From assembly GCA_001799195.1 (NCBI GenBank), contig MGSU01000112.1, positions 8,650 to 45,974 on the forward strand: 37,325 nt of DNA, in the 5' to 3' direction. Both the position numbers and the translations under genes were made by a program. The notes under the pieces were generated by a model, which did not search any database, was not told where the DNA came from, and was given only the letters and a program-made list of their open reading frames with translations. Source of the stretch: Deltaproteobacteria bacterium RIFOXYA12_FULL_61_11 (GTDB lineage Bacteria; Bdellovibrionota_F; JAHFAK01; YA12-FULL-61-11). Positions within the stretch are counted from its first letter, which is position 1. Each line of letters starts with the position of its first letter. Positions 5,338 through 11,806 of the stretch are shown here, one piece after another.

Positions 5338-5356
5338 TGCTGCCGAAGCATGCGTT

Positions 5357-5734
5357 ATGACGACTCTAGGCTTCGAGGGACGAGAGGTCAGTATGCCGAG
5401 CAAACTCGACGAACTCCGCCGCGACACCCGCATTCCCGTGCGTCTGCGGGTCGATTTCCGTCAGCACGACAACTTCCTCTTCGAGTACACCGAGAATCTC
5501 AGCAACAGCGGCATCTTCATCATTACTCCGACCCCCCTCCCTCCCGGCACCATGCTCGAACTCGTCTTTCATCCCGACCAACCGAGCGCTCCGATCGAGA
5601 TCCGCGGCGAGGTCATCTGGATCAACCCGCCAGAACAATCGACAAAACCCGGCATGGGAGTGAAGTTCATCGACGTGCCGAGAAAGACCAAAGAGACGAT
5701 CACCCGCCTGGTCAACCGCCTGGCAGTGCTCTGA
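5357..5734 (+). CDS. PilZ domain protein (c-di-GMP binding)
   Basis: RRDTR (RxxxR) and NLSNSG (NxSxxG) motifs; true start may be ATG at 5393 (MPSKLDELRR). Confidence 0.88.
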   Translation: MTTLGFEGREVSMPSKLDELRRDTRIPVRLRVDFRQHDNFLFEYTENLSNSGIFIITPTPLPPGTMLELVFHPDQPSAPIEIRGEVIWINPPEQSTKPGMGVKFIDVPRKTKETITRLVNRLAVL

Positions 5735-5769
5735 TCTTATCCTTCAACCTGTCTTTACAGAGGTGGTTC

Positions 5770-6855
5770 ATGTTGAAAACGTGTCTTGGTCTAGTTGTTC
5801 TCGTCGCCTTCCTCGGTTGCAAACAACAACCCGGGAAACCATCGAACCCCGCCGATCAACCGTCCCAAGCCCCATCGGCCGACGTCCTCGCCGTGATAGA
5901 CGGCGATACCATCACGGAACAGGATCTCGTGCGCAGCATCAACACCGATGCCGACCTGTACCAGCGTTTCTACCAGATCTATCAGATCAAGAAGGACATC
6001 CTCGAACAGATCATCGACGAACGGGTGATCACCCAAGAGGCCAAGAAAGAGGGGAAGGACAGGGAGCAGTTCCTCAACGACCGGCTCAAGGACAAGATCA
6101 CGGTGGCCGACGAGGAGGTCGAGGGTTTCTACCAGAACGTCAAGGATAACCCGACCCTCAAGGGTACCGAGGAAGAGAAGAAGCAGAAGGTCCGCGAATA
6201 CCTCTCGGAACGCAAGCGCGTCACCCTCGAACGGAAAGAAGTCGAGGACCTCAAAGCCTTGCACAAGATCGAACTCCGCCTCGCTCCTCCGCCCTATCCC
6301 GAGGTCCAGGTTTCCATTGAGGGCGATCCCGTCCTCGGTCCGGCCGACGCGCCGATCACCATCATCGAATTCTCGGACTTCGAGTGTCCTTTCTGCCGCC
6401 GCATGGCGAGCATCCTCAAGAAGGTGCTGGAGCAATATCCCGGCAAGATCAAACTGGTCTTCAAGGATCTGCCTCTCACCAAGATCCACCCCGCCTCGGA
6501 ACAAGCAGCCCTGGCCTCCCACTGCGCCGAGGATCAGAACAAATACTGGGAGTACAGTGACCAACTCTTCGAATCGAACGGCGCCCTCGAGACCGCTGAC
6601 CTCGTGAAATACGCCACGACCCTCCAGCTCGACGTCGCGGCCTTCAGCGCCTGTCTCGAGCAGAAGAAACACCTCGCCGCGATCGAAGCCGACCGCGCCG
6701 AGGCCGATCGCGCCGGTATCAACGCCACTCCGACCATCATCATCAACAACAAGCTCATCACGGGTTCCAAATCCCTGAGCGGTTTCAAAGAGATCATCGA
6801 CGCCGAGCTGGCCAAGCTGGCCCCGGCGGCAGCTCCGCAACCGACGAAACCCTGA
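5770..6855 (+). CDS. lipoprotein thiol:disulfide oxidoreductase, SurA-N-like plus DsbA/thioredoxin_4-like domain
   Basis: MLKTCLGLVVLVAFLGC lipobox; VLAVIDGDTITEQDLVRSI... SurA-N-like region; FSDFECPFCRRMASIL active site (CPFC) and cis-Pro region GINATPTIIINNKLITGSK. Confidence 0.88.
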   Translation: MLKTCLGLVVLVAFLGCKQQPGKPSNPADQPSQAPSADVLAVIDGDTITEQDLVRSINTDADLYQRFYQIYQIKKDILEQIIDERVITQEAKKEGKDREQFLNDRLKDKITVADEEVEGFYQNVKDNPTLKGTEEEKKQKVREYLSERKRVTLERKEVEDLKALHKIELRLAPPPYPEVQVSIEGDPVLGPADAPITIIEFSDFECPFCRRMASILKKVLEQYPGKIKLVFKDLPLTKIHPASEQAALASHCAEDQNKYWEYSDQLFESNGALETADLVKYATTLQLDVAAFSACLEQKKHLAAIEADRAEADRAGINATPTIIINNKLITGSKSLSGFKEIIDAELAKLAPAAAPQPTKP

Positions 6856-6949: not shown

Positions 6950-8938
6950 ATGGCGACCTCTCTCTATTCTCCCTACCGACCCGAACTCTGTGTCTGGGAA
7001 CTGACCCTGGCGTGCAACCTGCGCTGCGGCCATTGCGGCTCCTCGGCGGGTACGGCCCGGCCCGATGAGCTGACCACGGCTGAGTGCCTCGGCCTGGTCG
7101 ACGACCTATCGCTCCTGGGTTGTCGTTTGATCACCCTCTCGGGCGGCGAACCGACGTTGCGGCCCGACTGGCCGCTCATCGCGCGCCGCATACGTTCCTC
7201 GGGCATGGCCGTCAACATGGTCACCAATGGGCTCACCATGACCGAGGCCCTGGCCGCGGAAGTCCGCGAGGCAGGCTTGGCCAACGTGGCCGTGAGCATC
7301 GACGGCCCCCCGGAGGTCCACGACGAGATCAGAGCGAAGGGATCGTTCCAACGAGCCCTCGCCGCGCTCCAAACCCTGCGCGGGGCCGGCGTGTCCACGG
7401 CGATCATCACCACCCTGCACACCCTCAACCTCGACTACCTCGATTACCTGTACCGGCTCGCAAAGGACCAAGGGGCCGCGATCTGGCGGTTACAGCTCGG
7501 CAAGCCCATGGGAAACCTGGCCAAGCACCGGGACCTGACCCTCGTACCCGAGGATTACCTGGAGCTCGTCCCCCTGATCGCCGAACTCAGCCGACGCGGG
7601 GGGACCCGCGTCGATGTAGGTGATTCTATAGGGTATTTCGGTCCCCACGAGAGTTGCATCCGCGGTACGAGCGCCGACGGCCGGCCGGGAGTCTGGGCCG
7701 GGTGTCAGGCCGGTATGCGCGTCATCGGCATCGAGAGCGACGGCGGCATCAAGGGCTGCCTCTCGATCCAGGCTTTGCGCGGAGAGAACGACCCCTATCG
7801 CGAGGGCAGCATCCGCGAGGAGAGTCTGGCCTCGATCTGGCACGATCCCGACCGCTTCGCCTGGAACCGCAAGTTCCGCAAACGCCAACTCCACGGGTAC
7901 TGCAAACGCTGCGACCACGCCGTCCGTTGCCGCGGAGGAGCGACCTGCGTGGCCACGGCCTTCACCGGACAGGTCGGGGATGACCCGTACTGTTACCACC
8001 GAGTGGTCGAACTGGCGAGAGAGGCCGCGTCGCCGCCGACCTTCACGCGCAAAGTGGCGACGACCACCGCCGCGGTGATGCTCACCTTGGCCGGATGCAG
8101 CGGAGATTCCCAGGTCACTACGGACCCGAACCGCAATACCTCGGACCTCCCGCTCACCCCTGCCCAACTCCAACAGACCTGCGCCCAGGTCGACTGCGCG
8201 GCCGATCCCTCGACCATCGCCCCTGCTTTATTCGCCCAGTGCTGTCAAACCTCCGCTGACCAACCTGCACAGCCTGGAATGCCGGTCCAGGACGGCGATG
8301 ATCCCACCTCCCCGACACCTCGCGCCGAGTATGCAGCGCCGGCCCCCATCGACCAACCCGACTACGGCGTGGCCGTACCCGAATACGGCGTCATCACCCC
8401 GCAACCCGACTACGGGGTGGTCACTCCCGATTACGGCATCGCCCAACCCGCCTATGGCGTGGATCTGCCGCCCACGCAAGCCCTCGATTTCGATACTCTA
8501 TTGAAGCCTTTCTATTCGGGTCTCACGACCGCCCAGGACCGCGTCATCGACAACGAAGCCGACTTCGCCGCCCTGTGGTCGGACTTGACCGACAACGGAC
8601 CCTCCGCGACCCGCCCGGCGGTCGACTTCGACACTCATCTCGTGATCGTCACCGCCATGGGCGAGAAACCCTCGGGCGGCTACAGCACCACGATCACCGA
8701 CCTCTCCCTCGAGGGTTCCCGCTTACGGATCGAGGTGGAGGACGAGGCTCCCGGGGCCTGTGGGGCCAGCATGGCCATGACCGCACCGGTGCACATCATC
8801 CTGGTGGAACGGACGTGGCTGGAGGAACTCTCGCTGCCCCCGCGGTTCGTCCACCAAGCCGTCACCGCGGACTGCGACGTCCCTCCTGCCCTCGAGTATG
8901 GGGTGGCCGTGCCGCTCTACGGGGTTTCTTTGCCGTAA
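6950..8938 (+). CDS. radical SAM/SPASM protein fused to lipoprotein-like segment, Y-G-[VI]-x-x-P repeats and PrcB_C-like domain
   Basis: CNLRCGHC radical SAM cluster motif, GGEPTLR, SPASM-like Cys set (CQAG...GCLSIQ...YCKRCDHAVRCRGGATC...CYHR), then RKVATTTAAVMLTLAGCSGD, YGV repeats, and DFAALWSDL...GEKPSGGYSTTITDL (PrcB_C-like), ending in YGVSLP-stop. Confidence 0.88.
   Translation: MATSLYSPYRPELCVWELTLACNLRCGHCGSSAGTARPDELTTAECLGLVDDLSLLGCRLITLSGGEPTLRPDWPLIARRIRSSGMAVNMVTNGLTMTEALAAEVREAGLANVAVSIDGPPEVHDEIRAKGSFQRALAALQTLRGAGVSTAIITTLHTLNLDYLDYLYRLAKDQGAAIWRLQLGKPMGNLAKHRDLTLVPEDYLELVPLIAELSRRGGTRVDVGDSIGYFGPHESCIRGTSADGRPGVWAGCQAGMRVIGIESDGGIKGCLSIQALRGENDPYREGSIREESLASIWHDPDRFAWNRKFRKRQLHGYCKRCDHAVRCRGGATCVATAFTGQVGDDPYCYHRVVELAREAASPPTFTRKVATTTAAVMLTLAGCSGDSQVTTDPNRNTSDLPLTPAQLQQTCAQVDCAADPSTIAPALFAQCCQTSADQPAQPGMPVQDGDDPTSPTPRAEYAAPAPIDQPDYGVAVPEYGVITPQPDYGVVTPDYGIAQPAYGVDLPPTQALDFDTLLKPFYSGLTTAQDRVIDNEADFAALWSDLTDNGPSATRPAVDFDTHLVIVTAMGEKPSGGYSTTITDLSLEGSRLRIEVEDEAPGACGASMAMTAPVHIILVERTWLEELSLPPRFVHQAVTADCDVPPALEYGVAVPLYGVSLP
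8363..8470 (+). repeat. five Y-G-[VI]-x-x-P coding repeats
   Basis: YGVAVP-E-YGVITP-QPD-YGVVTP-D-YGIAQP-A-YGVDLP read directly from the ORF. Confidence 0.95.
8897..8935 (+). repeat. two further Y-G-V-x-x-P coding repeats at the extreme C-terminus
   Basis: E-YGVAVP-L-YGVSLP followed immediately by TAA. Confidence 0.95.
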
Positions 8939-9088
8939 GAAGACCGTGAACTCCCTCGACGTGACGGAGTACAACCACCTATGCGCATCCTCTCCGCCCG
9001 CTGCGTCGAACTCGAGATCTGTGCTAGTATTGGTCACGATCAACCTCGAAATGCTGCCCGACCGACCCGTGCTCTTGGAGGAAAACCC

Positions 9089-11806
9089 ATGACCACCCAA
9101 CATCGTTTCACCCTCGGCCTCTTGCCCTTCCTGGCCCTCGTCGCCTGCATGAAGCAGAACGACTACGAGGTAGTGGAACCGAGCCAACCCGCCGCCCCTC
9201 CCGTGATGGCGACGGGAGGTCCCCAACATGCCGAGGTGGTCCTAGAAGGTCGCTACGACCTGCCCGAGGCCTATATCGACCGTTCCGAGAGCGGCCTGAT
9301 CCGGCAGATCAGCTCGTTCGAGGATCTCTTCACCCGGCAGGGCGAGGACGATTTCTTCGCCTCCATAGACCCGACCGAGGTCGACACCGTCCCCCTCACC
9401 CTGACGCTCCGCCGCGATCCGGTCAACCACCTCGGCGAACAAGACCTCCTCGCCGCCGTACGCAGCGACAAACCCCTGCTCCTGACCGTGGAATCCCATG
9501 ACGGGGGCCGCTGGACCTACACCTCGGTGGACCTGCGAGAGGCCAAGGCCATCACCTCCGAGGCAGGTACCCAGGCCCTCGAATTCGACCTGGCCATTCC
9601 CAAGGCTCTCACCTCCCCGACCCCGGTACTGGTCTTTATCTGTCTCGACGCCAACCTGAACGGCAAATGCAGCGACGAACCGGTCAAGAACCTCAACTTC
9701 TTCCTCAACCAGATCACGCCGGTGTTCATCATCGGGGGGGGCGATGTCCAGCGTGCCCTGGGAGACCTCATGGAAGAAAACGCCGAACAGCGCGCCGAGC
9801 GCTCCGCTTTCTCCGAGGGGTTGATCTTCTATTCCAGCCGCGCCGTGTTGGATCCCCGAGGTCGGACCTTCCTCGACTACGACGAGTATACAGGGGCCCT
9901 GCAGAACGACCTCCTCAAGCTGCTGACCGACGAACCCGAACAGTTCTCCGACGATGCCGCCCATAACGTCGCCTATGGCCAGGTCGACGGATTCGTGCGT
10001 TCGATCCCAGCCGAAATGGCCGCCGTCGATACCGGTGCGACCAGCTCTCTGGCTCTGACCATTCCCTTGGCCATGCTCGACCGGGCCCTGACCGGGGCCG
10101 AACAGGCCGGAGTTGCAACCTTCGACCTCTCGGAGTTCGCTGCCTCCACCACCGGCATCGAACAGGGCGGCGGCGGCGAGGAGGGGCTCGCGACCAGCGG
10201 CACGGAATTCACCGACGCGGTCCTACCGCTCTGGACCTGCAGTGCCGACTACACCTGCGTCTTCGACTACGCCGGCGAGTTCACCTCGGCCCAGGACTGT
10301 GCCACGGCCTGCAGGCCTCCGCGCTGGACCTGTTCGAGCAGCTATTCCTGCGAGCAGGATCCCGACGGGGTCTACGCGACGACCACCGCGTGCGAAGAGG
10401 AATGCTATCCTCCGGCCTGGACCTGCGACAATGCCTATCAGTGCGTGGTCGGCCGCGAGGGCGATTTCTCGACCCTCGAGACCTGCACCGAGGCCTGCCA
10501 ACGGCCCCCGCGCTATACCTGCACCGCCGGCTACCAATGCGTCGAGGATCCTTCGGGCCGTTATGGCACGCTCAGCGACTGTACCGAACTGTGCAAACCG
10601 GCTCCCTCGTATTCCTGCACCTCGGACTTCCGCTGCATCGAGGATGCTTCGGGCACTTATTCCACCCTGGCCTGGTGCGAGACCTCCTGCCAACCCCGCT
10701 ACGACTGTCGCAGCGATTACACTTGTGCTCAGGCCGCCGGCGGAGAGTATTCGACGCTCTCGGCCTGCCAGACCGATTGCCAACCCCCTCCCGTCTCGCG
10801 CTGGACCTGTTCCTCTACCTACCAGTGCGTCGAAGGCAGCAGCGGTCCCTATAGCAGCGTTGGCGCCTGCTCAACCGCCTGCGCCCCCCCGCCGAAATGG
10901 ACCTGTTCGAGCAACTACCAGTGCGTCCAGGGCAGCAGCGGCACCTACTCGGACCTGACCGCCTGTCAACAGAACTGCTCCCCGCCCCCGGCCATGCGCT
11001 ACAAGTGTTCTGGTTGCAACTGCGCCGAGGATCCCAGCGGTGCTTATTCCACGGCCGACAGTTGCCTCTCGGCCTGCGCCGGGTCGGTCAGCGAGAAGCA
11101 GCCGACCAGCGGCAGCGACTGCGACACCTATCTCCTGCCCCAGGATGCGGTCTGCCGCCAGCACTGCCTGACCAAAGCCCCACGCGATGCTACCTTCTAT
11201 TATCCCGGTACCCGTGGTTGTTCTTCGGGCTATGGGTGCTGCGCGAACAGCATCAAGAACGCCGACGGCGGGTGGTGCAAGTACAAGAAGGAGTGCTGCG
11301 GAGAACCGATCCCCTACGTGGTCAACTATCGCAACAACACCGGTTGTTTCGTCGAGGGTACCCCTATCCGGCTGGCCGACGGGAGCGAATTGCCGGTCGA
11401 ACGCTTGCGCCAAGGCCAGCTCCTGCTCGACCACACCGGCGAAGCTCACCTGATCGTCAACATCGTGGCAGGTCCGGAACGGCTACCGGTGCTGTGGCTG
11501 ACCCCCGCTGGAGGTCCTCGGCTCGGGGTCACCTCGACCCACCCCATGCTCACCGAGCGCGGCCTGCTCCAGGCCAAGGAACTCCACCGCGGCGATCGCT
11601 TATTGCTCGCCGACGGGAGTTTTGCCAGCCTCGAGGTGATCGAGGCAATGCCCTACCGAGGACTGGTCTGGAACGTCGAATTGGCCAGAAACGATCCTTC
11701 CGAACGGCGCTGGCTCCTCGCCTCGGGGATCGTCACCGGCGACCTCGCCCTCCAGGCCGAACTCGAACGAACCCCGGAGCCCGTGGCCCTCGCCCCCAGA
11801 CCGTGA
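9089..11806 (+). CDS. large lipoprotein with nine Cys-rich repeats and C-terminal Hint (hedgehog/intein) domain
   Basis: RBS TTGGAGGAAA before ATG 9089; lipobox LLPFLALVAC; nine (W/Y)xC...C...G.Y.T...C...C repeats; GCFVEGTPI ... TSTHPMLTERG ... GDRLLLADGS ... LASGIVTGD Hint blocks. Confidence 0.88.
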   Translation: MTTQHRFTLGLLPFLALVACMKQNDYEVVEPSQPAAPPVMATGGPQHAEVVLEGRYDLPEAYIDRSESGLIRQISSFEDLFTRQGEDDFFASIDPTEVDTVPLTLTLRRDPVNHLGEQDLLAAVRSDKPLLLTVESHDGGRWTYTSVDLREAKAITSEAGTQALEFDLAIPKALTSPTPVLVFICLDANLNGKCSDEPVKNLNFFLNQITPVFIIGGGDVQRALGDLMEENAEQRAERSAFSEGLIFYSSRAVLDPRGRTFLDYDEYTGALQNDLLKLLTDEPEQFSDDAAHNVAYGQVDGFVRSIPAEMAAVDTGATSSLALTIPLAMLDRALTGAEQAGVATFDLSEFAASTTGIEQGGGGEEGLATSGTEFTDAVLPLWTCSADYTCVFDYAGEFTSAQDCATACRPPRWTCSSSYSCEQDPDGVYATTTACEEECYPPAWTCDNAYQCVVGREGDFSTLETCTEACQRPPRYTCTAGYQCVEDPSGRYGTLSDCTELCKPAPSYSCTSDFRCIEDASGTYSTLAWCETSCQPRYDCRSDYTCAQAAGGEYSTLSACQTDCQPPPVSRWTCSSTYQCVEGSSGPYSSVGACSTACAPPPKWTCSSNYQCVQGSSGTYSDLTACQQNCSPPPAMRYKCSGCNCAEDPSGAYSTADSCLSACAGSVSEKQPTSGSDCDTYLLPQDAVCRQHCLTKAPRDATFYYPGTRGCSSGYGCCANSIKNADGGWCKYKKECCGEPIPYVVNYRNNTGCFVEGTPIRLADGSELPVERLRQGQLLLDHTGEAHLIVNIVAGPERLPVLWLTPAGGPRLGVTSTHPMLTERGLLQAKELHRGDRLLLADGSFASLEVIEAMPYRGLVWNVELARNDPSERRWLLASGIVTGDLALQAELERTPEPVALAPRP
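10229..11080 (+). repeat. nine tandem approx. 31-34 aa four-Cys repeats
   Basis: WTCSADYTC..., WTCSSSYSC..., WTCDNAYQC..., YTCTAGYQC..., YSCTSDFRC..., YDCRSDYTC..., WTCSSTYQC..., WTCSSNYQC..., YKCSGCNC..., each with a trailing C-x3-C. Confidence 0.92.
11345..11770 (+). other. Hint domain coding segment, starts with Cys-Phe after Gly
   Basis: TG|CFVEGTPIRLADGSELPVERLRQGQLL..., TxxH block TSTHP, ending LASGIVTGDLALQ without the intein HN dipeptide. Confidence 0.8.

Follow-up and report, generated by a model that had tools for sequence, protein, structure and literature searches.

What a Hint domain does at the C-terminal end of an exported, lipid-anchored protein is the question raised by one gene in the window analyzed here, a stretch of 37,325 nucleotides from contig MGSU01000112.1 of Deltaproteobacteria bacterium RIFOXYA12_FULL_61_11. 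The coding sequence (9089–11806; all coordinates are window positions on the forward strand unless marked otherwise) specifies a lipoprotein of 905 residues in which Cys repeats precede a C-terminal Hint domain, a layout repeated in paralogues from the same genome, and its ATG at 9089 is preceded by a ribosome-binding site, GGAGG, at 9077–9081. We favor, with moderate confidence, a reading in which this exported protein is held in the membrane by its lipid and its Hint tail would cleave itself off at the G752|C753 junction, without splicing.

The C-terminal domain belongs to the Hint superfamily

Judged by its sequence, the membership of C753–Q889 (11345–11755) in the Hint superfamily is solid. 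When a profile of 14 relatives (termed A5) was run against PDB chains, the best matches of solved structure were the BIL domain 2lwy (E = 4.2e-13, over positions 5–122) and the Mtu RecA intein (E = 1.6e-7, over positions 5–136, nearly the whole length). Overall, the BIL and intein chains gave E values of 4e-13 to 3e-7, whereas those of the Hedgehog chains were non-significant at 0.16–0.32 (1at0, 0.31; 6td6, 0.16). The marks of the superfamily are present, namely the nucleophilic first residue, C753, and the TxxH motif of block B, T815-S-T-H818. The domain proposed in the initial annotation is thus borne out, both by the match to 2lwy and by the recurrence of the whole pattern in four paralogues, and its reading of the NNTG|CF junction (G752/C753), the TSTHP block (T815–H818) and the LASGIVTGD end without His-Asn (HN) was correct in each detail.

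Single-sequence and single-model searches were less sensitive. Alone, the window sequence scored 27.7 bits with the Pfam model Hint_2 (E = 4.1e-6), slightly below the cut-off of 28.4, and 21.9 bits with Pretoxin HINT (PF07591; cut-off 27.7). A search of the source genome with the pretoxin-type HINT (PT-HINT) model returned zero matches, though profile searches found five Hint copies there, so reliance on a lone Pfam model would mislead. Likewise, two scans of genome contigs gave no confirmed relatives, probably for want of near-exact peptides, whereas whole-genome profile searches succeeded.

In the kind of profile comparison suggested in the initial annotation, the BIL and intein matches are significant and the Hedgehog matches are not. 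The proposed Hedgehog relationship does not hold up. The domain shares with the Hedgehog Hog domain a G-C-F junction, the TxxH motif, a C-terminal place on an exported protein and the absence of Asn cyclization; it differs in having neither a second Cys nor a sterol-recognition region, with no more than about 16 residues beyond Q889. Moreover, G-C-F is not specific to Hedgehog, as it also opens a PT-HINT domain (locus L043), and Cys1 and TxxH occur superfamily-wide. As the E value to the Hedgehog chain 1at0 is only 0.31, "Hedgehog-like" describes an analogy of mechanism and not kinship.

First-step residues are conserved across a bacterial family in which His-Asn is replaced

The extent of the family was surveyed with a nine-sequence profile in whole genomes of other phyla. 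Matches were present in 74 of the 195 genomes of one phylum and 41 of the 59 of another, with up to 13 per genome, and a single partial match came from viral contigs. Relatives that could be named come from Pseudoalteromonas (WP_308363129.1, for example), Embleya, Tistrella and Burkholderia replicons, some annotated merely as "Hint domain-containing protein". In the members that were read, the Hint domain closes or nearly closes the chain. In one 9-Mb genome, three C-terminal Hint genes fall within about 8 kb (L041:4182–12261), and similar clusters occur in other genomes of that phylum.

An alignment of 56 non-redundant family sequences was used to count the residues at each position of interest. 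Cys1 is present in all 56, the residue before it is always small (G in 44, S in 9, A in 3), and F or Y follows at +2 in 55; these positions define the predicted scissile junction G752|C753 (11342–11347), where G-C-F-x-E-G is found in all five copies of the source genome irrespective of the repeats upstream. Block B (T815-S-T-H818-P, 11531–11545) has T or S and its His in 56/56, and block F has Asn in 56/56. Where the His-Asn of block G would be expected, the family carries G-x3-G[D/S]-x3-Q, in the window copy G880-x3-G884-D885-x3-Q889 (11726–11755), with G880 in 54 members, G884 in 55, D in 30, S in 26 and the Gln in all 56; HN occurs in none. The window copy has every defining mark of this G[D/S]xxxQ family: Cys1, the small −1 residue, TxxH, the block F Asn and the ending. 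A further Cys lies four residues ahead of the catalytic one (C-x3-C1) in 34 of the 56 members and is absent from the window copy; it could serve as a redox latch on the N–S shift.

A profile built from the five copies also retrieved domains that do end in HN, including an intein in a helicase-like gene of another genome (1.8e-11). In a quick tree, these inteins and PT-HINTs stand apart from the family, and the five copies form one cluster (support 0.82), with members of a different phylum next to them. The ending bears directly on two readings, each of which was rejected as highly improbable. Canonical protein splicing by an intein would fit the intein-type fold match and Cys1; here, however, the chain ends V-T-G-D-L-A-L-Q plus a short tail, with no HN and no real C-extein, and splicing is not expected, since the terminal Asn and the C-side (+1) nucleophile are both missing. 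The reading as a pretoxin-type HINT, which would set free a C-terminal effector, draws on the weak PT-HINT similarity and on an N-terminal half that PT-HINT domains have in common with the present domain. Yet only about 16 residues follow Q889 (the domain end reads LASGIVTGD-LALQ), leaving no C-terminal cargo, which strongly disfavors this reading; HN is the ending of every PT-HINT and intein match that was read to its end, and the PF07591 score of the window sequence is below cut-off.

The passenger is a lipid-anchored Cys-repeat array

The initial description of the protein as an exported lipoprotein stands, with the lipobox L-V-A-C20 closing a signal peptide at 9089–9148 (MTTQHRFTLGLLPFLALVAC) and lipoprotein-type N-termini in the three other complete paralogues. 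The N-terminal domain that follows (about residues 21–375, 9149–10213) aligns with those of the same three paralogues at 30–35% identity, including a conserved CLDxNxxGxCxDExxxNLNFxxNQ motif, and had no match in the 383 other genomes searched. The Cys-repeat array occupies residues 382–663 (10232–11077). Its regular C-x5-C-x13-C-x3-C unit occurs eight times in residues 382–630, far above chance: 2000 shuffles of this region gave 0.016 occurrences on average and never more than 1. Nine four-Cys repeats had been counted originally; eight are canonical and the ninth, at about residues 639–663, is a five-Cys variant (C-x2-C-x-C-x13-C-x3-C). No match to the Cys repeats was found among phage records. 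A Cys-rich linker with nine Cys (residues 678–737, 11120–11299) leads to the Hint domain.

Between the lipid-bearing C20 and C753 there are 48 Cys, and past C753 there are zero. The number of Cys between the lipid Cys and Cys1 is even in all four complete copies in the genome (48, 10, 34 and 66), which, together with the lack of any Cys after C753, fits C753 as the sole free thiol, although with four proteins the pattern is suggestive only.

Predicted course of cleavage

The course that we infer begins with export, after which the lipid on C20 would anchor the protein. The 48 other upstream Cys would pair in disulfides, so that C753 alone would keep a free thiol; on folding of the Hint domain, C753 would attack the carbonyl of G752 in an N–S acyl shift, with T815 and H818 assisting, and the resulting thioester would then yield to attack by water or another small nucleophile. 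A Hint tail of roughly 17 kDa would be shed, and the Cys-repeat array would stay anchored with a new C-terminus, …NNTG752, exposed or tagged. The formation of the C753–G752 thioester and the cleavage are predicted on the basis of the role of TxxH in Hedgehog and of BIL precedents: the TxxH residues serve the N–S acyl shift in Hedgehog and mutations in them impair it (PMC4695875), cleaved products predominate when a BIL domain has no +1 nucleophile (PMC7664689), and N-terminal cleavage is known for B-type BILs that have no C-terminal motif (PMC7765530). Cleavage by N–S acyl shift instead of splicing, as forecast in the initial annotation, agrees with the conserved first-step residues and the missing HN. 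The accompanying idea that the array would be released does not hold, since the lipid keeps the N-terminal end of the array in the membrane and it is the Hint tail that would leave; chemical tagging of the C-terminus of the array is possible.

Several points weigh against this course. Block F carries an invariant Asn in place of its Asp, and no catalytic role is known for the terminal G[D/S]xxxQ, which leaves the efficiency and outcome of cleavage uncertain. The family was gathered by a profile that itself contains Cys1 and other counted positions, and Cys1 might in principle be conserved for structural reasons. In addition, the AlphaFold2 model from the single sequence (predicted local distance difference test score, pLDDT, of 33) was unusable. 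The losses in block F and of the HN in block G are also what would be expected if the Hint were a non-catalytic structural or binding module in which Cys1 is kept for folding or a disulfide, and in the 34 members with a Cys at −4 that residue could pair with Cys1. However, a merely structural role would need neither a −1 position confined to G, S and A nor an invariant TxxH His, and the number of other Cys in the window copy is even; we therefore regard a non-catalytic Hint as improbable.

The same retention of first-step residues with loss of the Asn step is seen in Hedgehog, and it leads to an alternative in which the thioester would be passed to a specific envelope nucleophile (a lipid, sugar, amine or peptidoglycan), leaving the array anchored at both ends. 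The strong conservation of G[D/S]xxxQ suggests more than plain hydrolysis, and isopeptide bond formation is on record for a BIL from Tetrahymena (PMC8616854). A further lead, and only that, is Glu797 of a GPE motif (11477–11479), invariant in the five copies and nearly invariant in A5: it follows Cys1 by 44 residues, against 45 between Cys258 and Asp303 in Hedgehog, and may be the equivalent of Asp303, albeit as Glu; no Asp is conserved at this place. Set against this are the absence of a region resembling the sterol-recognition region, the non-significant Hedgehog similarity and the lack of an identified acceptor, and we consider such conjugation a minority possibility. More doubtful is its generalization, in which G[D/S]xxxQ Hints would form a distinct autoprocessing class in several phyla, the motif steering the thioester to an envelope acceptor so that exported C-termini are tagged or doubly anchored, as a bacterial counterpart of Hedgehog lipidation. 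Self-cleavage with shedding of the Hint tail stays the reading that we prefer.

Paralogues and neighboring genes

The source assembly (4.64 Mb in 342 contigs) belongs to a phylum represented by two genomes in the searched set. Four further Hint-lipoprotein copies are found in it, three as complete lipoproteins and the fourth truncated by a contig edge. Their Hint domains are 39–41% identical, the Hint domains of all five copies end in G-[IL]-[VIL]-T-G-D-L-x-[LV]-Q, and the Cys-rich middles vary in type and length.

Immediately upstream of the window gene, at 6950–8938, is a gene for a radical SAM/SPASM maturase (Pfam and NCBIfam) whose frame runs on through a lipobox-like LTLAGC segment, a PrcB_C domain and repeated YGV motifs. 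Its best NCBIfam match, TIGR04103, is below cut-off, and the product may be an enzyme joined to the substrate on which it acts. At a second locus (L012), a radical SAM/SPASM gene at 7396–9000 on the reverse strand adjoins a tandem pair of Hint lipoproteins; no such gene was seen in the surroundings of the L013 and L014 copies. The neighbors at these two loci were weighed as partners and set aside, as the 4.6-Mb assembly holds 30 SPASM matches, a high number, and the adjacency may be due to chance. The second gene upstream (5350–6855) encodes a SurA_N-like protein with a DsbA/Thioredoxin_4 domain (Pfam Thioredoxin_4, 1.4e-37; DSBA, 1e-17), plausibly a disulfide-forming partner or folding factor for the Cys-rich lipoprotein.

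Relation to known Hint systems

Bacterial proteins with C-terminal Hint-like domains, some with signal peptides, were described by Burglin in 2008 as distinct from inteins, Hog and BIL domains, the group including Myxococcus xanthus MXAN_6253, Stigmatella STIAU_1829 and proteins of Reinekea, Photorhabdus, Serratia and Yersinia (PMC2362128). That subgroup resembles the present family in its conserved upstream cysteines; the available portion of the text mentions no lipid-anchored Cys-repeat passengers, and the subgroup may be identical with the present family. C-type BILs, a type with a PPS-1 domain, have been described in predators such as Bdellovibrio (Dori-Bachash 2009, as cited in PMC9185962). 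Matches to the present family are dense in two phyla, one with many genomes of 9–13 Mb and the other with genomes of 3–4 Mb, and these may be the predatory groups in question. The Hint domain studied here most likely belongs to the Burglin group or to the C-type BILs. B-type BILs are similar in having intein-like motifs and no C-terminal HN (PMC7765530), whereas HN closes the A-type BILs and inteins at the place where the window domain shows T-G-D. No report of activity for the exact G[D/S]xxxQ subgroup was found in the literature searched, which included few subscription papers.

Implications

The family of such tails is large and bacterial, and it has been noticed before and is poorly studied. 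What appears new is the lipid-anchored Cys-repeat passenger, together with the quantified G[D/S]xxxQ signature. If the predicted cleavage is real, bacteria would repeatedly mature exported Cys-rich surface proteins by means of a Hint tail, and the near-invariant G[D/S]xxxQ in the place of HN would point to a course of Hint chemistry that has been little explored. With its many natural variants, some of them from genera that can be cultivated (Pseudoalteromonas, for example), the family would allow one to ask whether C-terminal tagging of the Hedgehog type has kin in bacteria.
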